NCBI GenBank assembly: GCA_027603945.1
Contig: JADIIU010000002.1
Span: 62,001 to 126,000 of the forward strand
Source: Terramyces sp. JEL0728
Lineage: Eukaryota > Chytridiomycota > Chytridiomycetes > Rhizophydiales > Terramycetaceae
Reading direction: 5' to 3'
Length of the DNA stretch: 64,000 bases
The notes under the pieces were generated by a model. It saw nothing but the letters and a program-made list of their open reading frames with translations. It made no database searches and was not told the DNA's origin. A program made the translations under genes and the position numbers. Positions 1 through 64,000 of this stretch are shown here, one piece after another (the stretch's first letter is position 1; each line of letters begins with the position of its first letter).

Positions 1-804
1 AGAGAGCCCCCAAAGGAGGACGCTGTGTTGCTAAAGGAAGCGGTCAGAGATGTGGAAATTTCGTGGATCAAAAAAACCAAATCAGACGAAGGAAAGAGAG
101 AGTTGATTAAAAAATTGGAAGCATCTTATCCTAGCCACCTGCCTTTATACATTGAAAAGTTGGAGGTGTTGGCTGAGCTTGCGCAAAAGGAAGTAGAAGC
201 TGGAATTAAATCCCTTGAGCTCTCTTCTGAACGAATTGATGTTGCAAGCAAGATTTCCACCCTGTTCAATGAAGGCGACGTAGCAATGTACTTTGGTGTT
301 CAGCAAGATCTTAGTCAAGGGAATGACAAAGACAAGGATATCAAAAAAGATATGGATCTCAAAAAACAGCTTCTTGGGTTAGCATATCGCTCCAAAGCTT
401 CCGCTTATATCACAGCTATCAAGTTCAAGGAATCTGGCGTTTCTGCACCAGAGAAAGTAACCACGGCACTTGATTCTGTTACTGTTGCTGATTTGACGGA
501 TCAATTCAATGCCGCATTGGCTAAGGTTGGTAACTGGTCGAGTGAAGCACCATTAGACAACGGGCACTATCTTTTGTTATGGACTTGGAAGCAGAGAAGA
601 TTGGGCTACCTCGGAACTGCTTTGAAAGCGCTGCAAAAGTATGTTTCTTCATCAAAGAACGCTTACAAAGATGCAACTGGCGCATACAAGGAATGTGTTA
701 AAATCAAGGTTGAGATTTTGAAGGAACTAAAGTGGGATATTTGGAATGAGCTTGATGAAAAATGGAAAATCTTGAATTTCCCAAAGATTCAGGCCCGTTT
801 CTAA
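1..804 (+). CDS. TPP2: Tripeptidyl-peptidase II, C-terminal part (5' end outside window)
   Basis: The frame is open from the first base to the TAA at 802-804, so the window enters this gene in mid-coding sequence. TPP II is a giant cytosolic subtilisin-type exopeptidase that removes tripeptides downstream of the proteasome. The visible 267 codons match the helical C-terminal region of animal TPP2 as I know it. The segment around SHLPLYIEKL corresponds to DHLPLY in the human protein. The stretch KDIKKDMDLKKQLL corresponds to the NDMDKQK region, and the ending GYLGTALKALQK...ELKWDIWNELDEKW corresponds to the mammalian end with its LLGW motif. The subtilisin catalytic domain lies upstream and is not visible. 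No intron is needed in this part. The next gene is convergent and its stop codon lies about 50 bp away. Confidence 0.85.
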   Translation, partial: REPPKEDAVLLKEAVRDVEISWIKKTKSDEGKRELIKKLEASYPSHLPLYIEKLEVLAELAQKEVEAGIKSLELSSERIDVASKISTLFNEGDVAMYFGVQQDLSQGNDKDKDIKKDMDLKKQLLGLAYRSKASAYITAIKFKESGVSAPEKVTTALDSVTVADLTDQFNAALAKVGNWSSEAPLDNGHYLLLWTWKQRRLGYLGTALKALQKYVSSSKNAYKDATGAYKECVKIKVEILKELKWDIWNELDEKWKILNFPKIQARF

Positions 805-857
805 TAAAAGATTATAATAATCAATTTATATTACGTATGCTATTGTGAGAATGGAGA

Positions 858-2630
858 CTAATTCCCTTTTTGCTCGCTAATTGCTGGTGTTCTTTGTGGA
901 TTCACTTTGGGACTTTGATTTAACCTCGCAGGTTTTCCATACAGTGCATTCTTTAACGATCTAACAGCAAATACAGTTAATCCCCTGGTGTTAGTGCGAA
1001 ACTTACAGACTGTGCCAGTCTTCCTCTTGCAAATCACGCAAATCTCCAACCGTCATGACATCTTGCGCATTTAACTTGGTCAGCCATTCCTTTGCCTTTT
1101 CCATTCCTCTTTTTGTTGCGATTGCAGTGTCACGAACCAACTCTTCTATGTTGTAATCATCAGGGTATTCTTTAATTGGGAAATCCTCCATATTATCGAA
1201 CGGAGTTATTTCAGCCATAGAACCCTTCCTCGATAACGATAAATGGCCTTCAGATCCGGAATCGCGACCAGCGCTTTCTAACCGCTGCAAACTGTTCCAC
1301 TGTCTATTTTCTTCCTTGTTCTTTTCGTCGCTTGCTGGTTTGCTCAATTCACGAATAATTCTGTTAATTTCTCCGGTAATTAAGTGTTGGTATTTTGCTG
1401 GAAGGACCTCTTCCGATATCATTTCATTCACGACTTCCTCAGCAGTATCAGTATCAACTAGGATTAGCAAGAAATTGCCATTAAAATCAAATTTAACAGA
1501 TAAACGATCCATTCCTTTAAATACAACCTGCATTGTCAAATGTGTTTTGTCAGGGTTGTTAATGATGACCACCTCTGGTTCAACTGCTAAAAACGGATGC
1601 TCAACGATTTGCTGCGCACTTAATCTGCCGTTAGTTGCTATTAACCTTTCTGATTCATGTCCGATGCAATTACAGATCAAATCGTAAACTTCAGGGTCGG
1701 TGACTTGCTGCAGACAATCTGGCTTGATCCCCTAAAGTTAAATAAACAGACCTGAATGACCTTTCTATAAATCTGAGGCGCATTTTTGCATTCGCTATAA
1801 GGGTATTGTCCAGTAACCATTTCCAACAACGCCATTCCGAAGGCGTAAATGTCAACCTTTTCACTGTAGCCCTTTTCTTCATACATTTCCTGGGATTAAT
1901 ACATAGAATACAGGCGCCATAAACTCTGGGGTGCCAATCACTGTATATTTTTTGCCCAGCTTCATCTTTGCGGTGCCCATATCGCCAATCTTTACTTCGC
2001 CATGAGCGCCATTGATAAAAATGTTATCACACTGATATTAAATAACTTTTAACCTTAATATCACGATGGATAATCGGTGGGTCATTGGAGTGAAGATATG
2101 ACAATCCTTTTAAAATTTGCCTCGCCCAACGCTTTACTATTTTAAGGTTCGGTATATGCAGTTTTCTAATGTATCTAATATGAAAAGGAAACTACTCTCG
2201 TAACGTCCCAGATGTCATTAGCTCTGTAATGAATACAAACTCGGAATTCTGAAACCAGCAATCATGAAATTGAATAATATTTGGGTGTCTAACTCTCTTG
2301 AGGATTTCAATTTCCTGACTCAGCTCCTGGAATTCTGCTTTTGTAGTCTTTTTAGAAATATATTACTTGGCAAGTATTCCATGCAACCTCGTACCCCTCC
2401 TCTCTATCGATAGCTTTGTAGACAATTTTATACGCTCCTTTACCTAAAACTTGGTTTAGCTGATTTTAGGAACAAAAAACCTTTGCGTATCTCCTGTTGG
2501 GAGATTCTTCTACTACTCTGTCTGTATCTGATCTGTCCACCGTGTCCGGCAAGAGAAGATTATTTGGTATCGAATCTCCTTGATAATCCTTGTCACCTGC
2601 CTTTGAAACCGCACTTGGTCTTTGATTCAT
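858..2630 (-). CDS. WNK-type protein kinase with OSR1-like and SAM-like C-terminal regions
   Basis: A serine/threonine kinase of the WNK (with-no-lysine) family, known elsewhere as regulators of osmotic and ion balance through SPAK/OSR1. It reads only after removing at least six micro-introns (985-1006, 1732-1751, 1890-1911, 2032-2053, 2348-2366, 2460-2480; 19-22 nt). The spliced kinase has the glycine loop [11 protein letters not shown], whose lysine is the WNK catalytic lysine. The usual subdomain II lysine is absent (EVAWN). The catalytic loop HRDIKCDN and the WNK-typical EMYEEKG and YPYSEC motifs are present. The DFG triplet reads DMG. An OSR1_C-like domain follows ([13 protein letters not shown]), then a C-terminal SAM-like helix set that is completed only by the last splice. 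I chose the ATG at 2630 because the longer reading begins at a GTG. The family assignment is secure; the SAM call is tentative. Confidence 0.85.
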
Positions 2631-3080
2631 GTAAATTGTGATTTGGTTTTTTGTGAAAGTGTTTTGTGGAAAGTGATTAGGGTTGCTCTTTCCCAAAAAA
2701 GGCGGCAGGCTCACGTAACACTTCGCCTATCAACAGATTCAAGTTGATTTACCAGTTTACGGTTCTCATCATCTTGCGTTGGACTGTCTCTCAGGAATGT
2801 TCCTTGGGCGGTTTGTCTGCCTTATTTTTCTTATTTTTGCTTGTGATGAAAATAACGACTAAAAATAAAACCAATTTGCACTGATGGTAAGGGGCAATAG
2901 ACTTGATCCATAATGCCTTCCATAATCAATCGAACGCCGATAGAGTAGTCACATGTCGACTGCAGAACAGTTGGTGTAAGAATTCTCGAAAGTGGTAGAT
3001 TAAATCACATTAAGATGGAAACTTATAGTAGCTCTAATCAGTTTGGCAGGTATAAAAAATTTGATTTTTTTTGTTTTTCA
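2631..3080. other. 450-bp divergent intergenic region (WNK / AAMP)
   Basis: This is one of the longest gene-free gaps in the window and should hold the promoters of both divergent genes. No tRNA-like fold or recognisable gene was found. On the minus strand a reading frame of about 50 codons (roughly 2846-3003) contains two cysteines and could be extended by a GT-AG pair into a short hydrophobic segment followed by lysines. It has no ATG at its beginning and resembles nothing I know, so I do not call it a gene. Confidence 0.4.
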
Positions 3081-4304
3081 ATGAGTGGAGAGGAAGACTT
3101 TGGAGAGGAATATATTCAAGAAGATGAGGTTGCTGAAGCATACGATATTGCGGATTACAATGAAGAGGAACTAAAAGAAATGGAAAATGAAATGGACGAA
3201 GACATGGAAGAAGACGGTGAACCACAACAGTTTGATTTGGAAGATGATTCGATTCAAGGTTTCTTTGAACATAAAGGTAAAGGAAATTTGATCTCCAGAC
3301 CCTGTATATTCAGTTGCACTACATCCAAACAACCCGTTAATCGCAGCAACTGGCGGTGGTGACGACAAATCAGTACTGTGGAAATTGGATACTGGAGAAA
3401 AAATTGCAAATTTAGCAAACCACAAAGATTCTTGCTCTTCAGTCGCCTTCAATTTTGATGGAAAGTATGTAGCCAGCGGTGGGATGGACGGAAAAGTTTA
3501 TGTTTTTGAAACAGAAGCATTTACTCAAGTAGCAAGCGTTGAAGGTCCATCCGAGGTTACTTGGCTTAAATGGCATCCAAGAGGAAATATACTATTAGCT
3601 GGAAGTGAAGATGGCACTGTTTGGATGTGGTCTATACCAAATGGTAATTGCATGAATGTATTCACTGGCCATGCAGATTCAATTTCTTGCGGCCAATTCA
3701 CACCAGATGGAAAATTGGTTGTAACTGGCTCAATTGATGGACTGGTTCATGTATGGGATCCAAAGACTGGTGCAGCTGTTAAGAGATGGTCGCCAGAAGA
3801 TGGAAGATTCCATCAAGGTCCAGTAACATCCTTAACTGTGAACAAAGAAAGCACGCTTATATTATCTGGTTCACAAGATGGCACCACTAGATTACTACAA
3901 ATCTCTACCGAAAAGATTATTGGAAATTTAGATGACCATTCTGATTCTGTGGAGGCTGTTTCATTTTCACCAGCACTTACGTTTGTTGCAGCAGGTTCAG
4001 TAGATGGAAAACTCCAGGTTTGGGATTATCAAGCCATGAAACAGAGATTCACTGGCTCTCACAAAGTAATTTGATTTTAAATTAGGATGCAGTCACAAAG
4101 GTGATGTTTACCGCAGATGGTACCAAATTGGTGTCGGCATCATTCGATTGCACGCTTAAACTATGGGATGTCCGCACTGGCGAATTACTCCGTACGTTCA
4201 AAGGGCATCAAAATGCAATCCTGGACTTTGATATCCGCAAAGATGGGGATATCGTAGTAACTGCTTCAGATGATGGCACTTCGATGGTGTTTCCGCTCAT
4301 TTAA
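3081..4304 (+). CDS. AAMP: WD40 protein AAMP/Sqt1 (ribosomal protein uL16 chaperone type)
   Basis: An acidic N-terminus (about 60 residues rich in D and E) is followed by seven or eight WD repeats. Segments such as LLAGSEDGTVWMW and ATGGGDDKSVLW match AAMP/Sqt1. In yeast this protein escorts a large-subunit ribosomal protein into 60S assembly. Two micro-introns are needed. The one at 3277-3298 (22 nt) joins EHK to DPVYSVALHP. The one at 4066-4085 (20 nt) joins SHK to DAVTKVMF, and without it the frame hits TGA. I chose the ATG at 3081 (MSGEEDFG); an ATG at 3015 would add 22 low-complexity residues. It is transcribed divergently from the WNK gene and converges on the carrier gene 67 bp downstream. 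Confidence 0.85.
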
Positions 4305-4371
4305 TTACAATAAATTAAGTCATGAATATTGACATTTATTCTATTGGATATAAATAATGCTGTGTTGATGA

Positions 4372-5456
4372 TTATTCCGATTCTCCATATGCTTGATGCA
4401 ACATATTCCTTACAGTAACTACAACGTAAAAAGTAGCGGCATTGGTAGGGAATGCCCTAATAGCAGTAGCACCTAACCCAGAGAACAGGACGCGAACTCC
4501 TTCTTCTCTGGCAATAACACGCAAACCGTTGATCAGATTCTTGTATTTGGGATTTCTTTCTTCTTGAACTACAGTTAGTCGTGTTCTACCTGACTGTAAT
4601 CTAGTTTTCACTACATCTATAGGATACGTTGATAGCCACCCAATGATTCCCGCAAACCCACCGGCTAAAAGTAGCCCGGGAGATGGTTCATTTGGATCTA
4701 CGTCTGGTATCATTCTGCACATTAGTTCATAAGAAGCAAAATAAGCACCATAACTAGGCGTTTCTCTAATAATTGTCGTAGGCAATCCTTTAAACAGTCC
4801 TGGAATGCCTTTAGCACGATATGTTTGCCTAACACAATCGATTGGCCCTTTATAATTGGATATGCCAGCCTGATTTGGATTATTTGACTGGTTTTGCAAT
4901 CGAATTTTGACTTGTTAGCTTATAAATACCCAACTCCATCGGAGAACTGAAAAACCCATTGATAAATCCTGATATGCATCCTAACGTTAGTTGATGTTTG
5001 CCTGCCGTAAAAATATTCGTCACAGTAGGGTTTTCAACATCTGCTGACACCAGCCTAAGTGCAGCGCCGTATACACCAAACAGTAAACTGAACTAAACAA
5101 CTAATTACCTATTAATTACAGCTACTCCCACTTTTGGTTAAATTTGCGTACCTATTGGAGATGCCATTCCCTTATACAATCCAGTAATCTGCATTAATTG
5201 ATCAATCTTACTCCTTCTTTCCTTACAATTTGGTTAAAACATCCAACCACTCCAAACCTTTGTCCCGGTGCCTGCAGACGCACTTTTATTGTGTCCTGGA
5301 GTGAAAAATAGGTTACCAGTGGATGACCTGCCAATACACCAGCGGAACTATATTATATAAGAACTACCCTCCAAATATGCCTGCCGTCAAGTCAATTCCA
5401 AATGCGATATGGCCGTGTACATCAGTTGAAAATACAGATTCTGTAACTTCACCCAT
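4372..5456 (-). CDS. Mitochondrial carrier (SLC25 family, carnitine/ornithine-like)
   Basis: An inner-membrane carrier of about 300 residues with three repeats, each carrying the P-x-[DE]-x-x-[KR] signature. These signatures show only after splicing. Intron 5296-5316 (21 nt) joins HPL to DTIKVRLQ. Intron 4911-4929 (19 nt) joins SPMEL to VKIRLQ. The third repeat, YPIDVVKTRLQ, is uninterrupted. At least one more intron near the start (about 5353-5372, 20 nt) and one or two around 5090-5230 are needed. The overall type resembles carnitine/acylcarnitine or ornithine carriers, but the substrate cannot be settled by eye. The start ATG at 5456 gives MGEVTESV. The tandem neighbour RTF1 ends 56 bp upstream. 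Confidence 0.8.
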
Positions 5457-5512
5457 TAATTAGAAAAAGTCACCTGAGTAAGTTGCGAAAAAGTAAAAAC
5501 AAAGAATGGAAA

Positions 5513-7104
5513 TTAAAAGTTCATTTCTAAATCCTTTTCCAATATCGAAATATCCAAATTATCAAACGGATCTTCGTCATCAGAGTCTTCCACTTTTTCC
5601 ACAGCTTTGATTTTTTTTGCTTTCTTACTAGGAGAGCTGTTTGGTGTAGGCTTAACAGGATCCACAGACTCACTTTGTACTATATGCAGCGGCTGGGTCT
5701 TGCGTCTGGCAAATGGGTCATCCTCGTTGTTTCCTGATATTAGCAACGATACACCTTTTTGTCGCTTTAGCTGCAAGGCGGCAATTTCAGCTTCTCTGCC
5801 TTCTCTGATATCTGCAGATTGATATTTAGCATTGATTTTAGCTAGATTCTCCATCTGCGTTGAAGTGGTCTTGTTCATTTCAACTATACTTTGCAGCTCT
5901 TCAATTCTTTGCGAAAGTTCTAAAACCAGCCTTGTATCATCTGCGCATTGAGCAGCCTCCAATTCCAACTTCAAACGTAAGCGTTCCTGAGAAGCATTGC
6001 CGACAACTTGCTTCATGGCTTTCTTTTTCTCAATCATTGCCGTGATCTCCGCCTGTAGTTAAATATTTGATACATCTGAAAACACATGTTCCCGAATAGC
6101 TTTAAGATCTGCAAGTTTGCGTGTGATATGGTTTTTCGTCAAAGAAACTTTATCAATCTTTGCCTGAACTTCATAGCGGTTCCATTCCTTTGCAGTAATT
6201 GGTTGGTTGGAAATCATATCCATCAATGTCTCCTTTTTGGATTTGCCATGGCTAACGTCCAGCGCAACTTTTGTGAAAGTCAAATTAAGTTTATATTTAC
6301 GTTTGTACTCTTTAATATCTGAATTAGCAATACCAACCTTCAATCAGTACTACCCTATATATCAGCTCCTTTCCAATTCCGGAATTGCCCAACGATAGCC
6401 TCAGGAAGCAGCCTTTGGCAGATTTTTCAAACATTGGCTTATGCAACCACTGTTCCAATTCATCTCTCTTGATCTGGATTGAAAGCGCATCTTCATAGGT
6501 AATTGGAGGGTGTTTGTTCTTTTTAGGCAAGTCGTCATAGTCATCTTCCGATTCGTCGCTTTCATCTGAATCCATTCTTATCCTTTTCTCTGATTTTTCA
6601 GAAAATCGGCTGCTGCGTTCTTTCTCCCTCTTTTCTCTGCTTTTTCGGAGGTTTTCTAGAGTCTGTCCTTTCCGTTGTCGATCGGTAAGCTTTGCACTCT
6701 CCATTACTTTTTGCTGGGACTTTACTCGATTCTTTAGTATCGTCCTTTCATTCAATTGGTCGAGCTGATATTAGCCAAGAGTACCTTTTCCCTTCTTTCG
6801 GCCAATTCCTTTTCTCTTTCAAATTCAGACATTGCCATCAATCTGAGTTAACTACCAAGCACCGTTTTCGATCTTTGGAATCTCCCATCAAGTCTTTATC
6901 CCATGATTTAACTTCTCGCCATTCGTCATCGGAATAGTCATCATCTTCCGACCTGTATTCTCCTTCGCTTTCGTCTGTACTTGCGCCTGATCTGAATTAA
7001 CCAAATAGACTATTTAAGTTCTACTGATTACCTTACGCAACTCGTTTTCTTTTGGTGTTGCTTGGCTGTAGTGATTCCAAAATATCATCCTCCCAATCGC
7101 TCAT
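5513..7104 (-). CDS. RTF1: Paf1-complex subunit Rtf1 (Plus-3 domain)
   Basis: Rtf1 travels with RNA polymerase II and promotes H2B ubiquitination. The protein has an acidic N-terminus from MSDWEDD, a basic coiled stretch, and the Plus-3 domain (IKRDELEQWLHKP, then GNSGIGKELIYRVVLIE). A C-terminal coiled coil and acidic tail end in EDPFDNLDISILEKDLEMNF. Five introns could be placed. Four are 19-21 nt, including those that fuse VVLIE to DIKEYKRKY and FSD to AEITAMIEKKK. The first is an outlier of 45 nt (6992-7036), and no shorter GT-AG choice gives an open frame there. The ATG at 7104 is the first in frame. The gene sits head-to-tail with ALG11. Confidence 0.85.
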
Positions 7105-7163
7105 ATCCTGATTATTATTTTGTGAAAAGATTTTGTGGCAAAAAATTCTGTAAACAAAAAATA

Positions 7164-8613: not shown

Positions 8614-8626
<13 letters not shown>
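7164..8626 (-). CDS. ALG11: GDP-mannose:Man3GlcNAc2-PP-dolichol alpha-1,2-mannosyltransferase Alg11
   Basis: Alg11 adds the fourth and fifth mannoses to the dolichol-linked oligosaccharide on the cytosolic face of the ER. An N-terminal membrane anchor (residues 1-24) precedes the GT4-type fold. Family motifs visible are FFHPFCDSGGGGERVLW, SYVHYPTIS, VNSTWT, VYPPCDT and the donor-binding NEHFGI. Micro-introns at 8063-8081 (19 nt) and two of 20 nt further down rebuild HYPTISSDM, LAENVEII and EYMAAGL. The ATG at 8626 lies inside the end of TAH18, giving a 13-nt coding overlap. The next in-frame ATG at 8605 would avoid the overlap and still leave the membrane anchor, so the true start is open. 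Confidence 0.88.
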
Positions 8627-10478
<1,852 letters not shown>

Positions 10479-16129: not shown

Positions 16130-17359
16130 TCACAGTGTTGGAGATAGTGTCACTCGTCCTTCCAGTAAGAGCGCAAATGAAAGTCTTGTTTTGGAACCAT
16201 CTGTTCTTTGTACAGTCAAATCCCGATCGCTAATATTTATCAGCTTGACCGTAAATTTGGCTCCGTTATCAAACAGATATGCCTTGTCATTCTTGCAATA
16301 GGGTATGCCTCTGATATACAACTTTTCACCCCTAATAACGATTAGCGGTTTCTGCGTCTGAGTATCTATAACTGGATAATTACATGTTTTGAGAACATTT
16401 TCGTTGTTCACAGGCTCAAAGAGGCAATCAGTTTGCTATTTTAAAAATTAATTACCCCGCTCAGCATTTTCAAATCCTGCAGCGCTTCTTCTTCAGTCAA
16501 CCCGTTAATAGAGCTGGATGGGAACCCCACTTTTAATATGGGATTCCACTCATTTAATTCTTGGCGATGTCTTCTATGCTGGAATATAGCGTTGCGTTGA
16601 ACTGCATTAATACAAAAGTACCTAGAGAGTTATAATGTGATTCTAGAGCAGGAGCATAGCAGGCTCTATGTTTTCTAATTTCAGCCTGGTGTCTTTTCTT
16701 TTTCTTGTAAACTTGTTCTAGGATTTCCTTCCGCTTGTATATTTTCCCAACCTGTAATGAGAAATAAACGTACCTCTAGGGCTGTCTTTAACTGTTGGAC
16801 TGTAGCTTCGAACTGGTTAATAGCTAATCGCTCTTGAAAGCTTTTTTCTTGAAGCAGAAATTGAAGTCTGTCCTTTTGCTGTTCCTCCATCTTTTTTAGC
16901 TGAGATACAAATTCAAGATTAGTTCCTACAGTTAAATCATTGAAACCATTCCTAACCGACTCTTCTTCGGCTTCAACTTCAGCCATTCCTTCATCGAATA
17001 TTCTAGAGGTTAATTTGTCTATTCTTGAGATTTCAGATGAAATGCTGTTGGATATCTCTAGATATCTGCACCAAATTTGAAATTGCGCTGATCCTTACCT
17101 TTGCTTCATGCTGTTAAATGCATTTTCTATTCTTGAAAATACTTGCAGTGCTTCTTGGTGAGTGAGTTTGTAAGCTATGGTTAAATCCCAATTTACTCTT
17201 CTCCTCCTTTACATTTGAACTGTCTTTATCAGACTGGAGATCAAAGTCATTGCTCCATACTGAAGATAAAGGGGAGGAAGTGATTGAAGTTTTCTGTTTT
17301 GCTGCTGCCATCGACGGTGGTGAGAGAGATACTGGAGTTAACTGCTTCTCCTTCAGCAT
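16130..17359 (-). CDS. SDS3: Sds3-like subunit of the Sin3 histone deacetylase complex
   Basis: After removing five introns the protein has a coiled coil containing LEFVSQLKKMEEQQKDRL and a helical stretch rich in K and E. An LTEEEALQDL segment follows, then a C-terminal beta module (GEKLYIRGIPY, RTDGSKTRLSFALLLEGRV). The order and the C-terminal module match Sds3/SUDS3/BRMS1, which hold Sin3 and Rpd3-type deacetylases together. Introns are 20-22 nt except one of 33 nt between MKQR and YLEISN. No other GT-AG choice restores that join. The assignment rests on family pattern recognition of the coiled coil plus the C-terminal GKLYY-like block. It is divergent from NOP12, with 205 bp between starts. 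Confidence 0.65.
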
Positions 17360-23756: not shown

Positions 23757-24905
23757 TTACTCCAAGACTGTAGTATTGGGTTTCCTGTTTTTGAGCACAG
23801 TACCAAGTTCCGCCAATAGAAAACTACCGCCTTGTGCTGTTCTCTCCACTTTTGCTTTCTTTGGTTTCTGAAATAACGTTTCCAAAAGATTCTTCATTTC
23901 ATTAAACTCGATTTTATCCATAATCTCATACTCTTTTTCATCCTCTTCATGTACAATTTCAGTCTTACTCTCTCCCGCACGTTCAAGTACTGTTTCTGTA
24001 CTTTTCAAATCATTTCTAGCTGTTGGTTCTTTTACGACATGTAAATGATTAAACAGTTGATAATTCTTTAGTTTCAACCCATCGACATCATTTTCTAATA
24101 CTCTTTCTACCATTTGGAATACTATGCTTGCTGTTAATTCATTCTTTATCATTAGTTTATAATTTGATTTTAATGATAAGTGTAGTTTGAATCTGTAAAC
24201 AAGTTCTTTTTTCAGTGATAGGATTATTCTTTTAGAAAAGAATACGTAGATTGACGAAATGTGCTGGTTGTTGATCAAGTGATATAAGCGGTTGATTTTA
24301 GCTGTTCTTGCTTGATTATGCACTGTATTTATCGATTCCTCTTTGTGTGCATCTTCTGGTGTACCATGTGCAATGTTATCCAAATTGCCCTGATTATTCA
24401 AATTGCCCTGATTATTCAAATTGCCCTGATTATTCAAATTGCCCTGATTATTCAAATTGCCCTGATTATCCAAATTGCTCTGATTGTGCGGATCAGAATC
24501 ACATTTACTGAATTGAGACGCATCCTCCACACGGAATCCACTCCAAAAGATAGTACGCCGGTAAATGAAATAGTAAAGGAGGTTGAAAATAAACCAGCAA
24601 ACAAGACGGATTATCCCAGATCCCCAGACTCTTTTCAGCTCAATCAAAAACTCCATCAAATCTTGCTTCACATAGTAATGATTCGTTTCTTTGACAAATT
24701 TCCCAATATAATATAGTTCCTTTCTATTTTCATAATACCCATTCATTTCATTTCTTGTCTTGTTGATTTCATCCTGTAAAAGCCGTATTTCAGGCTTGAT
24801 GTCTATTTCCTCTTCGTCCAATTCCACATGAGGCTCAATGTCTTTATAATCTTCAATGTCCAAGTACTCTTTGTAGTAATCATTCAGTGGACCGTCGTAA
24901 AACAT
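23757..24905 (-). CDS. Orphan protein with membrane segment and hexapeptide repeat tract
   Basis: A single open frame of 382 codons that I do not recognise. The N-terminal 95 residues are acidic and helical. A hydrophobic aromatic segment follows (roughly residues 100-120, LVCWFIFNLLYYFIY), then a tandem tract of NNQGNL hexapeptides. The C-terminal half is basic and then acidic (HEEDEKEYEIMDKIEFNEMKNLLE). The repeat is encoded by an 18-nt tandem array. Because the frame is open throughout, 3n-long micro-introns could still hide in it, and the membrane segment in particular should be checked against RNA. Its ATG is only 9 bp from the ATG of the divergent BRCT gene. Confidence 0.6.
   Translation of the reverse strand: MFYDGPLNDYYKEYLDIEDYKDIEPHVELDEEEIDIKPEIRLLQDEINKTRNEMNGYYENRKELYYIGKFVKETNHYYVKQDLMEFLIELKRVWGSGIIRLVCWFIFNLLYYFIYRRTIFWSGFRVEDASQFSKCDSDPHNQSNLDNQGNLNNQGNLNNQGNLNNQGNLNNQGNLDNIAHGTPEDAHKEESINTVHNQARTAKINRLYHLINNQHISSIYVFFSKRIILSLKKELVYRFKLHLSLKSNYKLMIKNELTASIVFQMVERVLENDVDGLKLKNYQLFNHLHVVKEPTARNDLKSTETVLERAGESKTEIVHEEDEKEYEIMDKIEFNEMKNLLETLFQKPKKAKVERTAQGGSFLLAELGTVLKNRKPNTTVLE
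24381..24488. repeat. 18-bp tandem repeat, about six copies
   Basis: The unit caaattgccctgattatt is repeated head to tail five times almost perfectly (24381-24470), followed by a degenerate sixth copy with three changes. Because 18 is a multiple of three, the array keeps the frame of the overlapping minus-strand gene and encodes repeated NNQGNL. The near identity of the copies suggests recent expansion by slippage or unequal exchange, so copy number may differ between strains. Confidence 0.92.
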
Positions 24906-37105: not shown

Positions 37106-40100
37106 CTAATCTTCATCCCAGTCAAGTTGCAAGGAGTTACGGTGATCAACAGGCAAATCAGGGTCATAGTAATGCGAGTTGACTGGAGCATAGCCAGAAT
37201 TTCTTCTTACTCTTCCTTGGATAGAATCCCACGCCCAGACTGCAAAGCCTACAATTTTCTCACCAGCTTCCTCGATAAAGTACGAAATGTTATTCATAAC
37301 TTTGGTGAATGTTGAGCGAGATTGGCCGATTGGAATTCCACCGTCCAAAGGCAGCCCGATTCTTCCGTAACGGCCCATACCACCTCTTTGATAAAGATAC
37401 AACATATACAACGCACCAGAAGTCAACGGGACTGCAAATAGGAAGAACAAGAACCACGAAATCGAGGACCCAGCACTGCATACATCTGTTGCAGGTGACA
37501 TGTCTTTGCCGCCTTGGCAGAGAGAAATTTTCTTTTTAACATATCCATTGTACTTTTTGATGAATCCATTGACACAAGTAGGTTTTGGGGTGGACACTCC
37601 TGGAAGTAACACGCACTCGTTTCCTTCCTTTCTGTGATACTGATCGCATTCAAACTCTGCCATCGTGCATTCACATGGTTTGACAATTTCCTTCAACTGG
37701 GTGTAAGAATCACCGATATAACACTCGCGACTCTCTTTCCTTCTAAAGAATTCAACCTACACTCAAAAAACAAATACCTGTGCCCCAAAAGTGCACGAGC
37801 TTGGATCAGTGCTATTATTGTAGCTCCACAGTTCAAAATCACTTTCATAGGGATCTTCATCCATTTTGCATTTGCGAGACCAGATATTTCCGAAATCTAA
37901 ATGGATACCAACGGTGGTATCCTCCAATTCTGATGTATGAAGCCTTCCTAGTAAAACAAAATTTTGAGTAGTTCCACTCGGTTCTGTCAATATGTTTTGA
38001 ATCCTGAATTTGGCGCCAGAAAGCTTGTCGGCAAAGCTCAACTTTTTGAAGGTCTTTCCACTGTCTACAGAGTACTTTACAGAATTGATTGGCTCTTCGT
38101 CATTGGCAAGAACTATTATGCCGCCATGGTCGCTAATTTCAATCATGTGAGCTTCTTTAGCAACCTCCTTCCAGGTTTTACCAGCATCGTTGGTTAAAAA
38201 TACATCTCCTTCAACAAAATCAGCAAGCGAGCTGCCTACGTTGCCCACCCCAAGCATTAGTCCGACTGCACCAGAGCTTGAAAACATGTCTCTTTTGTCG
38301 TGCCTTTCAGTGAATGCGTGCAGGTGCAAGTGGCATGAATTGCCACAATCATAGGCTTTCCCTAGAGAATCAAGTTTTGGCGCTTGTAAATACGAAAACG
38401 ATTCAGCATCGTCATGGGACATTTTGGAGACCAATTTCTTTGATTCGCCTCTTGCAAGATCATCAATGTTTGCGATAATATTAGCAATCATAGTTCCATT
38501 TAACCCTTGAACCTTTTCAAAATCTACATAACCATTTCTATTCTGGTTAACGGCTTCCAGGGATTCATGGTAAAATGTTCCATTCCAGTTACTCTTGAAA
38601 ATACTTCCATACTCTGAGTCTGGTGATACCGATTGGATCATGTGCAATAGCACGTTACCAGTAGGCGACTCTAACACTGTGTATCCAAGGTGAGCCGCGA
38701 AACTCGTTGGGAAGCTGGCTTGTGCGAAATTGACCCCATCAATGGATACTTGGATTTTTATATCACGAGTTTCAGAGTGAGGCACGGCGACAATCAAATA
38801 TTCATGTTCAAAAGCAAAGCCGGTAGTTGAGTACAGCGATCTAAAATCAGAGTCTCCATTGTCAGATCTCTTGAGAATAAGCTTCGTCAAGGACCGTTGA
38901 TTGCCAGATTGGGGTTCAAATATCGAGCAAAATACAGTTTTGTCGGATGGTGCCTTGAAGTTACCTGTGCTGGCCCATTTGCACGTTTTTGCATACGCAC
39001 TAAGTAATGACCAAGATTTTCCAAAGTCATAAGTAACTTTTGCTTCAGTTCTGCACTTTGATTGGTCACTAGAACAATCAACACCACCAATCCAAATCAG
39101 CCAATCTTCATTCTTTGGATGAGGAATAATATATTCTGGTGCAAGATAAATATTTGGGGGGCTAGGCACTTCAATGGCTGCATAGTTTTCACCGCTATTT
39201 TTTGTATACCAAAGTAGTTCTGGTGTAACAATAAATGCTCTTGCCTTAAAGTTCTCGTCGGCAATTATTCCAATTACGGATCCTGCGTCAGCTAATACTT
39301 TTTTCCAAGTCAACCCTTCATCCTTTGAAAAATAAGCTTGCAGCTTTTTGTCTTTAGCAAGAATATGCTGAGTATTTGGGAAATAAAAAAAGTCGTCCAC
39401 TGAACTATCAAACTGGAAGGACGATATCTTCACCTGATGGGGCACTGCAGGGGATGCATCGCATTCTCTTTGAACTTTCTTTGACAAATCCACTCCGCCA
39501 TTACATTTGGATAACGCCAATTTCTTGTATCCAGATGATCCTTCATACTTCTTGCCTTTAACGCAAGCTTCAGGTTGTTGTGGATCTGTTCCATAAAGCA
39601 CACATTCATCTCCATCTTTGAAGAACCCGTCGTCACATTCAAAGTCTTCCTTTGTACATTCACACGCAGATTTTGGAGGAATGTCGGCAATGAATTTGGC
39701 GCCAATTCGACAGATCGAGTCGGATTTTCGACGCAAGAATAATTTTTCTTCGCCAAAGAAGCATTTCTGAGTGTTTTTGGTGTCTGCTGGAGACCACTGT
39801 TCAAAGTCTTTAGCAGTGTCTTTGCGATCACAGTCCCGGCTATAAATTTTACTAAAATCTAAATTAATTGCAACATTTTCCATAGAATTCAGATGGTGGC
39901 CAGTGACAAGAACTTGGTTAGACCCATCTCTCGAAGATATGCTTTCGACTCGAATTGCTTTGTTTGCGAATTTAAATTCAGCCCATGACAGTCCAAAGTC
40001 CCACGAATAAAAAACAGTGTCAGTAGAATGTTCATCATTAATTAGCACAATTAATCCGCCGTTATCAGCAATCGTCCATAAGTGCGCATCTTTGTGAACT

Positions 40101-43100
40101 TCCTTCCAAGTTCGGCCCGCATCTCTAGTGATATAAACGTCGCCTTGATCATAATCTAAAAGCTTGTCCCCTGTGTTTGCAATTGCTAGCATTAAGCCAG
40201 CGGCAGAATCTGCTTCAGATATTACGATTGGAGCATTGGGCTTATAACTGGTGTTAAGGTGGAAATGGAGGTTGCAAGGCTAATGTAAACCCAAAATATA
40301 CCTTTGAGGCACATTCAATAGGCTGCCCGGCAGAATCTTTTTCAGGTGCCAGAACTTTAGACCAGGTAGCGCCATTATCAAAGGTAACGAGGGATTCAAT
40401 TAGCTTTTCTGAAGAGCCAACGTTTTTAACTGTGTTTGCAAGAGCAATGCCAGGAATGCCAGGTATTTTTTGAAAATCGACTAAATTAGGAACGAAAACC
40501 TTTGGATTCAGAATTTCGGTTGGTGTTTTCCAATATTTTGGAAAAATAAGTCCCTTTATCGTTTGATTTGAACAGGTTTCCGTACTCCAGCCCTTTCTTG
40601 TTAGTTTGAGCAATGTCAATAAAGATACCACCAGTTACAGAATCCAAAAGAGCGAAGCCATTTTGTTTTGAATCCACTTCAGGCGGGAAATTGACCAAAG
40701 AAAACTTGATTCCGTTATATGAGGAATAGAGGATTGGGCTTGACGCCGTATTCTATATTAGTGTAATATTACCGTTGCAGCAATCATTACTTTGTCAACT
40801 ACATAATAATCCAAAACATTTGTTTCTATCAGAGCTTCTTTTTTCTTGGCATTGTCGCTGAACAGCAGCAGCTGGATTGGGTTTTGTTCAGAGCCAACCA
40901 ATCGGTCTTGCCCAATTTCCCCGTCTTTCTTCTTGAAAGAAGCGCAATAAATTCCATCTTCAGGCAAATCTTTATCTTTGAATTGAGAATCCTGCGACCA
41001 AATACATTTGTTAGTCCAGGTATCGACTAGAGTGAATGATTTACCATTATCTTTGGAGTAATGAGCTGATACAAAGCATGCTGTTTGCTGGCAGTTTCTT
41101 CCGCCAGACAGATATATGTACCAATCCGGCTGGGTAGGATGGAAATCCAAAATAGGAATGCCGAGCGTATTGTACGGTTCTGGGGTTTTCACGGCTGCAC
41201 ACTGATCTAAATTTTCAAACTTTTCATCACAAATGTAAATCTGTTCATCAGTGAAGATGAGCAGTCTAGTGTCTTTTGTTTCATGTGGGACAATTCGGAC
41301 TATTTTCTTGCTCTGCGAGTCAATCTTCTTCCATGATTTCTCATCGATCGAGCTCCACAATTCACCATCCTTGTTTAACAGGAAAACTCCCATATCAGGA
41401 GATCTACGAATGATTTCAAAGGATTTCCCATTGAAATTTGTGACGGCGACCTCTGGATCGTGCGGTGGTTTGGATTTACCTGGCTGGCAATCTTTTTCAA
41501 TGTTTTCACCCTTCTTGTCTTCGCCTCCTTTGCATATATCTCCAGGAATCAATCGGTAACCAGAAAGCCCAAGATATTTAGAACCTATTTTACATTCCAA
41601 AGGCTGATCGTTGATATTTCCTTCTGAAAGACATTGAAGTATTTCAGAATTTGGATCCGGCTTAAAGCCTGCATCACATTCATAGTCAGAGATGGTACAT
41701 TTGCAGGATTTTTCTACATTATCAAGAAGTGTGAATTTATCTTTGATGGCACAATCCGCATCCAACTTTCGGCGATAATAGCTAATTGAGTTTCCCAAAA
41801 CACATTGACTCGTTGGTGTTTTTGGCTGCCACAATTCCAAATCTTTTGATGGATCACAATCTCTGCTGAAAATATCTTTAAAATCGAGCTGGACAACAAA
41901 TTTTTTACCGGTAATACTCTGCTGTGATACAAACACAATCATTTTTTGTGAAGTTGACAGAGTGTCCAGATCGGTGAATATCGGAATCCACGGAGAACCT
42001 ACATGAGCTAACTGTTACCTTCCACTTTAAATGAATGGTTTTCCCAATTTTTTCCGCCATTCTTTGAGAAACTCACATAATCAGATGGATTTAATTCATC
42101 CGGTACCAAAACAATGGTTGAGCCATAGTTAATGATTTCGTATTTGTTGGGTCCTTTTTTCACTTCCCGCCAAGTAACGCCAGAATCTTCAGAGAGAAAT
42201 GTATCACATTCTTCATACGGCAATAATGAGGCACCTACATTGCCAACACCTAAAATTGTTCCTGGGGAAGATGAAACCGAGAATACCCTACCGACATTCT
42301 TGGATGTAGTGACGGAATGCAAATGTAGGAAACATTCATCTTTAGAGTTGCATTTGTAATCTTTGTCGTTGAGATCTTTCAATGGCGGTGCGATTCCACT
42401 CCAACGACGACCATTATCAAACGACATCAAAGTTGTCAACTTTTTGCTACTTGCAGATCTATCCAGCACTTCTTTCCAATTTTGAACGGTGTTTGACAGC
42501 AAAATACCTTCGTAGATAGCAGCTTGGATTCTTTCAAAATCAATCAACCCACGAGTTAGATCTCGGTTGGTATAGTCCAAAACTTTGGTAAAATAGCTGC
42601 CATCCGAACTGGACATGAATAAGGTGCCAAAAGGGGCTGGTAATTGGGAATTGGGGGAATTGGTAATAACATCTACCACAAGCGAAGTATTGGTTGATTC
42701 CAAAATTGAGAATGCTACAGGCTGTCTAGAAGTTCCAGATAGACCAAATGATGCTTTTTGGAAATTCTGGCCGTCTTTGCTAGTAAACATCTGGAATGGT
42801 GCAGAGCTAGGTTTCTAAATTAAGGAATAATCACCACGATTGCAATAAACCATCCAGAGGAAATTCCAATCACTGGAACCCCACCTTCCAATACTGGAGT
42901 AGATTTAGAAAAGTAGCTGTCACTTGAAACCAAAACCAAAGAGTTTTGATCTTTCCAGCTGATATCTCCTTGTTGTTCGGAAGTTGGCCATTGGGTACAA
43001 AAGATCATATTATCGAGCGAGGTTAACTTTTTGTTTATATTTTGGCCCCATTCACATTGAGAGGTCCAAGTTAACAACGGTTTCAGCGACTTGAGATTAT

Positions 43101-43609
43101 CTTTGGTATAATAAGCCTGGAGTCAGTAATGAGATACATCGTCATGACAATAGCCCTTGTTGCATTCCTTGATGCGCACAATAATTCGATTTGGATCATT
43201 TGGATGAAACGACAATGCACTTGAATAAGGAGCATCAATTGGCCTTGGAGGCGAGAACTTTCTCCAAGTAGATCCTCTGTCAACCGTCACATAATAATCG
43301 TTTTCCCCAAACGCAAACGCCTACATTAGGGATAAATACTGTTTTCTTTTCGTATGGGTGTGGAATCAATCCTGAAACTGACGGAACAGACTCGACTTGT
43401 TTAAATGTTTTCCCTTCGTCCTCTGATCTCCAAATTTTGTTTGATTCCTGCAAGAGAATAATCAGCGATTAGCAAATATCTACCTCCGATTCCTCAAAAT
43501 AGAACAATTCAGAAGCAGTCGAGTCGAACGGGGTTACTGCTTGGGAGGGACTCCCCGCAAATACTGTACCTAGCTGGTAAAACAACAATGGCAGAAATTT
43601 GCATTTCAT
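37106..43609 (-). CDS. VPS10: Vps10-family sorting receptor with three Vps10 modules
   Basis: A type I membrane receptor of over 2000 residues; Vps10 carries hydrolases from Golgi to endosome and vacuole. A signal peptide (MKCKFLPLLFYQLGTVFAG) begins at 43609. Asp-box propeller repeats (for example DGGRTWKEV-like ITRDAGRTWKEV, TNDAGKTWKEV) recur throughout. Three cysteine-rich 10CC modules follow their propellers. They are recognised by CKCTISDYECDAGF (near 41.7 kb), CECTKEDFECDDGF (39.6 kb) and CECTMAEFECD (37.6 kb). A transmembrane helix (SWFLFFLFAVPLTSGALYML) and a tail of about 95 residues ending in DWDED close the protein. Introns of 19-22 nt occur, for example 37757-37777. Yeast Vps10 has two modules; three is the notable point. 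Confidence 0.85.
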
Positions 43610-47446: not shown

Positions 47447-47936
47447 ATGTTGGGACAAGAAATGACTCCATTATTAGTTAAAAAGTTATCTGAATTTGGC
47501 CAATTACCTACCAGAGGCTCACCAATGGCTGCTGGTTATGATCTGTATGCTGCCCACCACACTATCATTCCTGCAAAAGGCAAAGTAATTGTACCAACTG
47601 ATATATCAATTGCACTGCCAGAAGGCACTTATGGCAGGGTAGCCCCAAGATCTGGTTTGGCGGTTAAACACTTTTTAGATGTTGGAGCTGGTGTAATTGA
47701 TAGAGATTACAGAGGGCCAGTTGGTGTGGTAATGTTCAACTTTAGTGATGTAGATTTCACCGGTAATTGTTGCTAATATAGTTGAACGCGGTGATCGCAT
47801 TGCCCAGTTGGTAATCGAACGAATTGCCACCCCAGATGTGCTTGAAGTTGAAGATTTGGACCAAACCGTCCGTGGCGATGGCGGGTATGGATCTACTGGA
47901 GTAAAAAAGGCCAAAGTTGAAGGACAATATGAATAA
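47447..47936 (+). CDS. DUT1: dUTP diphosphatase (dUTPase)
   Basis: A trimeric dUTPase of about 156 residues that hydrolyses dUTP to dUMP and keeps uracil out of DNA. Motifs in order are AAGYDLYAA (motif 1), [10 protein letters not shown] (motif 2), [17 protein letters not shown] (motif 3), [13 protein letters not shown] (motif 4) and the glycine-rich GDGGYGSTG (motif 5). One 19-nt intron (47763-47781) joins DVDFT to VERGDRIAQ. Without it the frame ends at NCC and motifs 4 and 5 are lost. The start at 47447 gives [10 protein letters not shown]; a second ATG five codons on is possible. The upstream gap of 194 bp to divergent PRP40 holds nothing recognisable. Confidence 0.93.
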
Positions 47937-57600: not shown

Positions 57601-58229
57601 TATTCCTGAATGAATTTTTTTCGATATGAATTCTGATTGCAGATCCGTCTTCCAATCCAACAATGATGAACGACTTGATTAGCGAGAAATACCTCTGAAG
57701 GTGTAATAAATACAATTTTGCTGCTGAGAGCAATCTGAATTTCAGTGTACTGGTCTGCAAGCGAAAGGCTATCCCAGAATCGTGCGAGCCCTTCAAAGTT
57801 GATGGCAAAGAATCCAGTCCCTCCAATGAAACAGCTAAATGCATTATAATCTCCAGTAATTTCACGTACTGGAACGTATAAGGTTTGGACAGGAACCATA
57901 GACTACGTTATTGAGCACAAACCTTCCTGTAATTCCAAATATAAACCACGTTTACTAAGCTAACTGCACAATTATCTGTTGGAACATCAACTGTGATAGT
58001 CCCGCCTATATTATGCATATTTACCAGCCATTTTTTCCTTCATTCCACTGGCAATATCGATTTTTTGAATTGTAACTGCGTCAGATTGATACAGCTGGGA
58101 TTTTAGAGACTCTTTTTTCAAAATAGGAGTTCCAGTGCGGGACGGCTTTTTCGCACTGCTGTATTTGGCTATTGATCGTGGTGTAGAGACAGCTCTAGCA
58201 TTGGGTTTTCGGGGTGTCTGTCCAAACAT
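54602..58229 (-). CDS. NUP133: Nucleoporin Nup133
   Basis: A large scaffold nucleoporin of the Y complex. The start MFGQTPRKPNARAVSTPRSIAKY is the disordered N-terminus. A seven-bladed propeller follows (the 56.6-58 kb exons) and then an alpha-helical C-terminal domain (RELWLYQNAVL, ALSKLAYLNTKQS, IGIWRKCWLSDDW). About 1150 residues fits the family. One clear intron, 54972-54991 (20 nt), joins WLSD to DWNELHERSRA. Others around 55.4, 56.56, 56.88, 57.05, 57.42 and 57.6 kb are required by frame changes but not all were traced base by base. Human Nup155 was considered and rejected because the C-terminal WRR-like block fits Nup133. Confidence 0.8.
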
Positions 58230-58294
58230 TCAGATTTGTCCTGAAAAAAATATGGCCAATCCAAGCATTTGGCAGCCTGGATATAATTGCATAA

Positions 58295-58459
58295 ATGAGA
58301 ATCGCCGTATGGATTGTGCCAACTATCAGTGCCATTTACCCCACCATGAGAACTTTGACTTATAAGAATCGAAAGCCATTTGAGCTAGTAGAGTTTAGCT
58401 GGGATGGATATTCGCTACGTAAATCAATCAAGCGAACCGTCCGCTTTCCTATAAGTTGA
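58295..58459 (+). CDS. Candidate small ORF, 54 residues, unknown
   Basis: A short open frame between NUP133 and the LIM-RhoGAP gene, in the same direction as the latter. It reads MRIAVWIVPTISAIYP, a hydrophobic start, then a basic stretch (YKNRKPFELVEFSW, LRKSIKRTVRFPIS). Size and composition would suit a small mitochondrial membrane protein, but I do not recognise it. Chance cannot be excluded at this length. It could also be part of the 5' leader of the downstream gene. Confidence 0.25.
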   Translation: MRIAVWIVPTISAIYPTMRTLTYKNRKPFELVEFSWDGYSLRKSIKRTVRFPIS

Positions 58460-58514
58460 AGTAGGCTGTATGCTAATTATGAGGCACATTTTCTTGAACT
58501 TCAAAAAAGCATCT

Positions 58515-61142: not shown

Positions 61143-61171
61143 GCATTTGTTAACTAATAAAGAGTTTTCCC

Positions 61172-61600
61172 ATGATTCGTTATCGGTTTTCACTTAAAAA
61201 TTTGATTTCAAAAAAAATCATCTCAATGTTTAGAAAGGTGCAACTTATCAACAAATCTCTCACTCGATCATTATACAAAAAACCAAATTTAACTCCGTTG
61301 TTCTGGACCAAAGAAAATATTGACACTCAGGTATACCAGGTATTATTCGACTATGCAAATGTCTCTGAATCAAAGGTGTTTGTATTATAACCGCAGGTCA
61401 CACTTTACGCCAATCTGACATCCGATTTACTAGTAGATGATAGAGAAAAGTTTGGATTTTATTTGGATTTGTTGGAAACATTTGAATTGCTTATTCCATC
61501 AAATAGAAACCAAGTAAGGGACTGGAAATCAGGGAAGGAAGCTGCTGATTGGATAGCCGCTAATTTGGAAGAAGCTGGAAGATTAGCAGATGCGGAATAA
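61172..61600 (+). CDS. Acyl-carrier-protein-like protein lacking the phosphopantetheine serine
   Basis: A basic amphipathic N-terminus (MIRYRFSLKNLISKK...) resembles a mitochondrial presequence. After it a domain aligns with mitochondrial ACP/NDUFAB1: VLFDYANVSESKVTLYANLTSDLLVDD, then a helix with LLETFELLIP. This corresponds to LTKDLGLDSLD...EDEFGFEIP in normal ACPs. The DSL attachment motif reads DDR here, so the serine that carries phosphopantetheine is absent. One 21-nt intron (61376-61396) joins SESK to VTLYANL. It may be a structural ACP paralogue, for example for complex I or LYR proteins, or a decayed one. It converges on TRM1 with 5 bp between stop codons. Confidence 0.6.
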
Positions 61601-61605
61601 CAAAT

Positions 61606-63349
61606 TTATTGTTTCAATTTTTTAGTTTCATTGTCATCTTGGTCTTGCTTTCTTTTCGTTGATTCTTTGTTTGGTTTTGGCCGGCTCTAACTGTTATAAT
61701 GTATTACCTTTGGGCCCCAATTAGCAGTTGGGTTTTCTTGGAAGCGCACCAGGTTGAATTTGCTGGACGGTGCAACTGCGTCCATTCGTGTAGCAAATGA
61801 AACCTTGGTTGTGATTTCTTTGGACATGATGATTTTTGCAGGACTAGTATCGCTCATTTCTCCTTTTTGAGGGTTTTCTTTGCACCACTGGCGTATCACA
61901 TCCCACACTACGTGTGCTGGTGCGTCTGTTTTTATTGCCTGAACCATTGCATGAGATTGCGATACTTTATACCCAGTCGAAAGCACGCCAGATATAAAGG
62001 TGGTTAGTGAAGGACTGATACATTTCATTACTCCGCACATTCTCGGCAAAACGTAATAAAGTGGTACAGGCAACTCTTCCGAAATTACCATCACCATTCC
62101 TGCCATTCTTTCCCAAGTGCCATACTTTGATTGGTTTGTAGCAATATGCCCCAACATTCTAGAGACAAATTCCTTATCATGAATTGGGTGTGAATATAAA
62201 GGGCCGGCAATCTAGCATAAATAGCAAGTTACATGCATCTTATGACTACAGTGTTGGCAATTAGAATTCACATCTAAAGCGCTAGGGCCAAACTTTGGTC
62301 CTTTATCCGTTTCGTTGTATTTTCCAATGGTTTGGGTTTCAAAGCTCTTGCATTGCTGGCAGTGATAGATCATGGAAGTTTTGCTGCATTAGAACATCAA
62401 TACCTAGAAGACTGCTTCATTAGTTGCGCAGAATTATACACTCTGACAAACACCCGGACATAGTAGTCGATATGGCAACTAATCAATGGCACAATTGCTT
62501 TTTTGTATCTGGACGCAATTGATTGAATGCTGTGCAATAAAATTCGCAAAGCAAGCTCATGTGTGTACGGAGCTTGGGGAATGTTCATCCCTCCGTATTT
62601 TGCCCAACAGCTTTCCGGTTGACTTCCAGCTAAAACAGCCAAATCGGTACATGTAACGCACAAAAGTCCACCATCCGCAACGGCTTGGACAGCGCTGTCA
62701 AGGAATGGTGCCGCTGATCCATACGGGTCCAAGTCAATAACATTGTACTCTGGTCCAGTATACAAAACTTTGCATGCATCTCCGTGGTTTGCTTGAATTA
62801 TGTTTTCCGCTTTATTATGCTTGGCATTTCTTTCAATTGCTTTGACAGCGTCTTTTGATAAATCGTTGGTCAATATCTTTGATATTCGAGGAATTTCTTT
62901 TGCATATCTAACCGAGCGTAAGCCAGAAGCAGAAAGGGCTTCCATAACTGAAATACCAGACTCATCAAACGATTTATGCAGGACATTGACCGGCTGGAAT
63001 GTGGAGGTGTCTGCAGAATCTAACATGCATTTAACCTGCAAGTTTCTCTTTTTCAGTTGTTTTTCAGTCATTTCGGGTGTGTATTCCTCATTTGTCATAG
63101 TGTAAATATCTGGATCCAGCTCCTGCTTCTTGTTTTTCTTTTGAAGCTTCTCTTTGAAATATAATTGACTCCATACTTTGATTGTTGCTATAGACATGTC
63201 TCTGTTAAATTCCTGGATTGGGTTGTAAAAGACTTGATCATCGAATAGGATTTCAGCAGACCCTATTTTAATATCCAAGCACCTTCCTTTACAGACTTTG
63301 TCCCATCTGCATTTAGAATCAACCATTTCGGTACCTCTTCTTTTCCCAT
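61606..63349 (-). CDS. TRM1: tRNA (guanine26-N2)-dimethyltransferase Trm1
   Basis: Trm1 makes N2,N2-dimethylguanosine at position 26 of tRNAs in nucleus and mitochondria. Motifs are VFYNPIQEFNRDMSI, SASGLRSVRYAKEI, NVIDLDPYGSAAPFLDSA and a zinc finger (CQQC...CQHC) brought together by splicing. The true N-terminus is MGKEEVPKWLILNADGTKSVKEG, joined to SAEILFDD by removing 63263-63282 (20 nt). The longer unspliced frame upstream of SAEIL is an artefact. Other introns join QSSS-KTSMIYHC (20 nt), KMH-IAGPLYSH (21 nt), and WGPK to a basic tail SRPKPNKESTKRK (21 nt). The product has about 550 residues, as in yeast. Confidence 0.92.
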
Positions 63350-63385
63350 TTATTCGAAAAAAAATATAAATCAAAATACCCTTTA

Positions 63386-64000
63386 TTAGAAAATGTAAAC
63401 GGAGAGTATAACAAAGCTTGCAAGGGCAAAGAAAGAGAATTTATCCGCGCTGGAGTGCGTGTCAGTTGCTGCTGGAAGATTGGAAGGGATGGATGATGAT
63501 GAATTGTAAATGCGGATTTGCTTTGTCAGACTTGAAACAGCTGTTCTAACAATGTCAAAGTTGTCACTTAAATGACAGTATAATCCATTTACACCCGGAC
63601 ACGTTGCTTGGATTTGGATGAATGAATGCCCGGTCAAAATTGGAAGTGTTATGCCGTCCCGGGAGAACTGGTATGCAGACATATCTTGATGTCTATCAAA
63701 AACACCATTTCTTCCTAGCTGGCCGTCTACCTGCTGAATTACACTTATATACAGAACGTTGATTGTTGTGTCAAAGAAATAAGCTGCTCCAAACGTTTTA
63801 GCTTGTGCTGCAAAGTCTTGATAGTTGAAAGTTTGAGTAAATTTAGCCTGGCATACTGTCAACTGAGTCCATTGTCTGCACCAAGAAGCAGCATTATAGG
63901 TAATGCTAAATCGAGATCCTGGAGGGTAAGGGAAAGCGAGGATATGTGTAACATTCGATTCAAGCTGGATATTGCTGATGACCAAATTAGTTGGTGCCCC
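63386..64000 (-). CDS. Cell-surface protein, C-terminal part, probable GPI anchor (5' end outside window)
   Basis: The frame is open to the window edge, so the start lies beyond 64000. About 205 residues are visible. Four to five cysteines (ASWCRQW, LTVCQAK, QATCPG, GLYCHL) and an N-glycosylation site (ESNVTHI) suggest an extracellular protein. The last 30 residues are a serine-rich linker followed by FSFFALASFVILSVYIF with no cytoplasmic residues, which is the form of a GPI-attachment signal. FPYPPGSRFSITYN faintly recalls the CEMIP/TMEM2 type of extracellular module, but this is too weak to use. No intron is needed in the visible part. It is tandem with TRM1, 36 bp from its ATG. Confidence 0.55.
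   Translation of the reverse strand, partial: GAPTNLVISNIQLESNVTHILAFPYPPGSRFSITYNAASWCRQWTQLTVCQAKFTQTFNYQDFAAQAKTFGAAYFFDTTINVLYISVIQQVDGQLGRNGVFDRHQDMSAYQFSRDGITLPILTGHSFIQIQATCPGVNGLYCHLSDNFDIVRTAVSSLTKQIRIYNSSSSIPSNLPAATDTHSSADKFSFFALASFVILSVYIF

Follow-up and report, generated by a model that had tools for sequence, protein, structure and literature searches.

Probable spliceosomal introns of 19-22 nt recur across the sampled genome of a chytrid fungus

The whole 64,000-nucleotide (nt) stretch of DNA analyzed here, called the window, corresponds to bases 62001-126000 of its contig in an assembly of 15,016,339 bases and 231 contigs. Genes on both of its strands (positions 1-64000) are interrupted by extremely short putative introns, of which a gene finder run with a decoy control called 146 of 19-23 nt in 35 gene models. 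Lengths cluster tightly, with 26 introns of 19 nt, 60 of 20 nt (the mode), 38 of 21 nt, 19 of 22 nt and three of 23 nt. At least one intron was present in 28 of the 35 models and the density was 2.56 per kilobase (kb) of coding sequence; the figure of 35 is not a gene count, because some models fuse neighbouring genes. These numbers were obtained with learned motifs, which gave 156 calls in total, and the remaining ten, of 35-96 nt, are mostly untrustworthy. A first-pass annotation had described about 100 GT-AG introns of 19-22 nt, with a mode of 20 nt, in about 30 genes. That description had the right shape and was an undercount.

For two genes on the minus strand, introns were delineated by protein-only spliced alignment, in which profiles made from the orthologs of other species were aligned to the DNA with free skips of 4-150 nt and no splice-site rule. 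The first gene (4372-5456) encodes a mitochondrial carrier (Pfam Mito_carr, 225 bits), and its profile was built from 26 of 27 orthologs, with the carrier of Boothiomyces sp. JEL0866 (P0241) excluded. Eight skips appeared in this unconstrained alignment, of 20, 21, 23, 21, 21, 21, 19 and 21 nt. They mark introns at 5348-5367 (20 nt), 5296-5316 (21 nt, without an in-frame stop), 5189-5211 (23 nt), 5131-5151 (21 nt), 5088-5108 (21 nt), 4981-5001 (21 nt), 4911-4929 (19 nt) and 4569-4589 (21 nt, again without an in-frame stop). The sixth of these, GCAAACATCAACTAACGTTAG, has GC-AG ends; its position at GC..AG within the 21-nt skip was set from the sequence.

The second gene (8614-10478) encodes an NADPH-dependent diflavin oxidoreductase resembling Tah18, as judged from homolog names, Pfam domains and the alignment. 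Its profile contained 21 of 23 orthologs, the fusion proteins P0123 and P0129 being left out, and the unconstrained alignment produced seven skips of 20, 19, 19, 26, 19, 19 and 24 nt. The introns lie at 10249-10268 (20 nt), 10132-10150 (19 nt), 10014-10032 (19 nt), 9602-9621 (20 nt, the 26-nt skip), 9410-9428 (19 nt), 9135-9153 (19 nt) and 8976-8996 (21 nt without an in-frame stop, the 24-nt skip). When GT-AG ends were required and length was left free, the carrier gave introns of 20, 21, 23, 21, 21, 19 and 21 nt with a score of 393, and the reductase gave 20, 19, 19, 20, 19, 19 and 21 nt with a score of 708. Three decoy pairs in the same alignment scored 291-338 for the carrier and 513-621 for the reductase. 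The gene finder missed two of the 15 introns in these genes, the GC-AG intron at 4981-5001 and the stopless 21-mer at 8976-8996.

Two further genes allowed introns to be defined by homology. In Prp8, encoded elsewhere in the assembly (contig C31), six introns were called, with lengths of 20, 19, 22, 21, 21 and 21 nt. Its spliced product aligns without gaps to human Prp8 (3jcr_A) over 403 residues spanning three introns, and to 8ro0_A over 256 residues spanning two more. In the window, the dUTPase gene (47447-47936, plus strand) has a single 19-nt intron at 47763-47781, across which the spliced protein aligns gaplessly to 4oop_A over 137 residues. All 22 homology-defined introns of the carrier, reductase, Prp8 and dUTPase genes fall within 19-23 nt (seven of 19, four of 20, nine of 21, one of 22 and one of 23 nt). 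In Paramecium, intron lengths carry a stop-linked bias against multiples of three. Nine of the 22 introns are multiples of three and four of those nine lack an in-frame stop, so there is no sign of such a bias in this small sample.

To the window we added 20 stretches of 10 kb from elsewhere in the same genome, giving a sample of 264 kb on 19 contigs, or 1.8% of the genome. The gene finder was a two-strand semi-Markov model with a codon-phase Markov description of coding sequence, trained on long open reading frames (ORFs). In motif-free runs, introns could be 10-120 nt long under a flat length prior, terminal dinucleotides were the sole splice requirement, and as a control 12 decoy dinucleotide pairs replaced GT-AG in the same finder. 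With GT-AG, 277 introns were called in the sample, 130 of them 18-23 nt long (none of 18, 36 of 19, 52 of 20, 27 of 21, 12 of 22 and three of 23 nt), whereas each decoy pair yielded 217-261 'introns' with 13-24 in that range. The sharp peak at 19-22 nt was thus seen for GT-AG and was absent from all 12 decoys. A stricter prior left the peak in place: 93 of 187 GT-AG introns measured 18-23 nt, while the decoys had 6-18 of 146-164 in that range. Calls longer than 40 nt were fewer with GT-AG (93) than with every decoy (127-162), and a large class of ordinary introns is therefore not indicated. When GT and AG spacings were simply counted, with no coding model, the excess at 19-22 nt was weak.

The short introns were found well beyond the window, in agreement with the earlier claim that they occur genome-wide. 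An intermediate prior gave 109 motif-free introns of 18-23 nt, distributed over the window and 19 of the 20 other stretches. A second-stage finder, in which length and motif were learned, was used for counts; its learning step is partly circular, so its results serve for counting and not as proof. It called 446 introns in the sample, 425 of them 18-23 nt long (including 103 of 19, 173 of 20, 98 of 21 and 40 of 22 nt), and introns of this class occurred in all 20 stretches outside the window, at 9-28 per stretch. Another 21 calls were 24-126 nt long, none of which we accept as real without homology. At the sampled density (425 in 264 kb), the full 15.0 megabases (Mb) would hold about 24,000 such introns.

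The introns share a common anatomy. Among the 109 motif-free introns, 93 have A at position +3, compared with 28.5% of 1504 GT..AG 19-22-mers taken from within long ORFs as background. TAAY occurs in 75 of the 109 and in 7.0% of the same controls, and 85 of the 109 contain the looser TRAY. The branch A is taken to be the second A of TAAY; it lies at nt 14 in 37 introns, nt 15 in 29, nt 16 in eight and nt 17 in one, and the distance from it to the intron end is 3-7 nt, mostly 5 (35 introns) or 6 (28). In the learned-motif set of 425, the commonest 5' hexamer is GTAATT (52 introns), G at +5 is rare (69), the main 3' ends are TAG (260) and CAG (104), and nt 5-9 are 42-60% T. The overall plan is a GTA 5' end, a short T-rich stretch, YTAAY with its A at nt 14-16, mostly 4-7 nt more, and HAG.

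Parts of the splicing machinery are encoded in the same genome. U2 small nuclear RNA (snRNA) was found at 140 bits with its branch-binding GTAGTA kept, and U5 snRNA at 85.9 bits. The large subunit of U2AF (U2AF65) scored 251.7 bits unspliced, under the 310.3 cut-off, and 334 bits once four called introns of 20, 20, 19 and 19 nt were removed. Together with the restored proteins, the GT-AG ends (one GC-AG), the placed branch motif and Prp8, these genes support the spliceosomal reading offered in the first-pass annotation.

Several matches in the search for spliceosomal RNAs were set aside. Two Rfam matches to U6 (contigs C199 and C111) were rejected, as they scored about 27 bits against a 44-bit cut-off, lacked the AGC triad and were near-identical to each other; this pair (L023 1501-1606 and L024 1501-1605) probably represents repeat copies. 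Six U6 pattern matches, read individually, were not U6. Just downstream of the U5 gene on contig C84 lie two equal-scoring 82-base transfer RNA genes (L043 1901-1982 and 2330-2411).

Protein identity indicates that the genome is fungal, from a chytrid resembling Boothiomyces, a genus placed in Chytridiomycota, Rhizophydiales, Terramycetaceae. In the long exon of Prp8, identity to Boothiomyces sp. JEL0866 is 98%, and no other protein among the best 120 of 2929 matches exceeds 86%; the carrier shares 87% identity with its JEL0866 ortholog. These values point to a member of Boothiomyces or a close relative, distinct from JEL0866. For the reductase, the top match was from Globomyces pollinis-pini (59%), and no Boothiomyces protein was among the best 120 of 882 matches. 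The genome had been called fungal-type from its sequence, and the nearest Prp8 among the matches listed, from a member of Chytridiomycota, bears this out. A genome of 15,016,339 bases with a Prp8 98% identical to that of a chytrid is not a nucleomorph.

Deposited JEL0866 proteins are informative about the same intron sites. The deposited JEL0866 Prp8 (P0001) has the same residue as the spliced Prp8 in 2285 of 2336 alignment columns. At five of the six sites that carry introns here, the JEL0866 protein has no added residues, and its introns there could be spliced or absent as seen from the protein alone; exactly at the first site (L035 1078-1097 here) it has seven added residues, as would result from a retained stopless 21-nt intron. 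The deposited JEL0866 carrier P0241 (295 residues) lacks the stretch with the SPMEL signature and has FTAGSLWLIIVKIRLQ in its place, adjoining the site of the GC-AG intron here. Both the Prp8 insert and the carrier gap look like annotation damage. At the site of carrier intron 1, a longer intron in Batrachochytrium salamandrivorans, suggested by a protein insert, was considered and dropped as the phases do not fit simply.

Other genes of the window carry introns of the same kind. A protein kinase gene (858-2630, minus strand; Pfam Pkinase, 190.8 bits for the spliced protein) has eight called introns of 19-22 nt. On the plus strand at 3081-4304, the finder modelled a gene for what we take to be a WD-repeat protein, with introns at 3277-3298 (22 nt) and 4066-4085 (20 nt). 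A minus-strand model at 37106-43609 has nine called introns and encodes 2101 residues of what is presumably a VPS10-like receptor. Two longer outliers had been proposed earlier. That of 45 nt was also called by the gene finder, at 6992-7036 (minus strand), and contains the branch motif, which makes it a candidate intron. That of 33 nt was not confirmed, the finder instead making a 96-nt call at 17003-17098 (minus strand) which, read by eye, swallows coding sequence; the 33-nt intron may be the right one there, at 17066-17098. Separately, a minus-strand ORF at 23757-24905 contains a run of NQGNLN-type repeats.

Taken together, the segments are very probably U2-type spliceosomal introns of a chytrid, shortened throughout the genome to a near-minimal unit of 19-22 nt. 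The sequence shows that such segments are present in each of the 20 sampled stretches, that their removal restores conserved proteins, and that they have ends, motif and geometry in common. Several points weigh on the other side. Removal by splicing from RNA is deduced from DNA and protein sequence, the sample covers 264 kb or 1.8% of the genome, and the learned-motif counts are partly circular. TAAY is absent from 34 of the 109 motif-free calls, and the unconstrained alignment of the reductase gave two of its seven skips lengths of 26 and 24 nt where the assigned introns have 20 and 21 nt. A covariance-model search of the whole assembly did not find U1, an empty result that does not show its absence. 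The same holds for U6, which was not found with a covariance model, by BLAST with the human sequence or in pattern searches allowing 3, 1 or 0 mismatches; the assembly may not contain it, or its sequence may have diverged or carry an intron.

If the finder were over-fitting, or the genes were decayed or carried sequencing indels, short skips would also accumulate, since any finder that may drop DNA repairs frames, as the 217-261 skips called with each decoy pair illustrate. We give this artefact practically no credence: the length peak is exclusive to GT-AG, the protein-only alignment yields nearly identical lengths without splice rules, and the affected genes are conserved and otherwise open. 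Restored frames would equally be expected if the segments were removed from DNA in the expressed nucleus, like internal eliminated sequences, or skipped by the ribosome in programmed bypassing, and splicing is here read from sequence. Both are highly improbable, as GT-AG ends and a placed YTAAY are signals of the spliceosome, whose parts the genome encodes. None of the listed segments, all GT..AG, is bounded by TA, although no dedicated repeat search was made. Elimination of this type is known from ciliates and is not known from fungi, which also counts against it.

A different question is whether the tiny introns, taken as real, are old and widespread in Rhizophydiales and hidden by annotation, rather than specific to one genus. 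This is a genuine possibility, although the balance is somewhat against it. The insert in JEL0866 Prp8 at the first site, with none at the other five, fits such a history, as do odd inserts or gaps in several deposited chytrid carrier proteins. On the other hand, the relatives are known from proteins alone, JEL0866 could lack the five introns, and odd chytrid proteins can have other causes.

On the preferred reading, that of genome-wide miniature U2-type introns, an ordinary spliceosome would remove them, with the 5' site, branch site and 3' site most likely read as one small unit through their fixed spacing. The 4-7 nt that mostly follow the branch A are too few to accommodate a pyrimidine tract. 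U2AF65 would then contact the T-rich stretch upstream of the branch A, or be dispensed with. The narrow size range probably reflects deletion pressure halted at the shortest length that the spliceosome tolerates. A more specific version, which we regard as rather unlikely, is that the ordinary spliceosome of this intron-rich fungus has been re-tuned to read spacing (14-16 nt to the branch A and 4-7 nt beyond it), with 5' sites mostly lacking G at +5 and with a U6 so altered, or itself split by a tiny intron, that ordinary searches miss it. If true, this fungus would be the first opisthokont demonstrated to operate at the size floor, and its genome would contain about 24,000 tiny introns.

At about 20 nt, the chytrid introns are not far above the smallest known for any nucleus and offer a test case for how small a spliceable intron can be. 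They would imply that the tiny-intron end state can be reached in fungi while U2AF65 and many introns are kept. Since a relative has a JEL collection number, the shortest spacing accepted by the spliceosome is open to experiment. There is also a practical side, as gene prediction that does not expect 20-nt introns likely damages proteins, of which the JEL0866 carrier and Prp8 seem to be examples.

Among known systems, introns of the Bigelowiella nucleomorph span 18-21 nt, a length class near-identical to the present one, there in a relic algal nucleus and here in a 15 Mb chytrid genome. For Bigelowiella natans, an intron length of 18 nt is cited in PMC12316389. The same paper gives 23-25 nt for the short introns of Trichomonas. 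Introns of Paramecium are about 25 nt (PMC5014332); nearly all are ultra-short, as here, but this is a ciliate and its introns are longer. In Yarrowia, Giardia and Trichomonas, which are intron-poor, the spacing from branch to 3' end is fixed and short and there is no 3' pyrimidine tract (PMC2483917). The chytrid branch site likewise keeps a short, fixed distance to the 3' end with no pyrimidine tract after it; in this genome, unlike in those, introns occur often and measure about 20 nt in total.

Within fungi, a survey of 644 genomes described the Cryptococcus mean of 63 bp as relatively short (PMC8476143). Among the best-ranked matches of searches in the open-licence literature, and in passages of PMC11649378, PMC5364385, PMC13391722 and PMC12862383, we found no fungal case of uniformly tiny introns. 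The present case is the only fungal one found within that scope, and an earlier notice could exist elsewhere.

The mikrocytids, parasites with a reduced spliceosome, have 224 introns of 16-17 nt, and deletion pressure meeting a functional floor has been argued for them (PMC10245619). The very narrow length range and conserved intron sequence are alike, whereas the present organism is a fungus that retains U2AF65 and in whose sampled DNA introns were called at about 1.6 per kb. In the ciliate Stentor coeruleus, introns are 15-16 nt with the branch A at nt 10 of 15 (PMC9505925). All five snRNAs were found there, in contrast to the chytrid, where U1 and U6 were not. The chytrid introns are about 5 nt longer and have a clear YTAAY, where Stentor has no strong branch consensus. 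In both, uniform tiny introns occur genome-wide with a fixed branch A, a GTAATT-type 5' end is among the commonest, and U2AF2 and Prp8 are kept.

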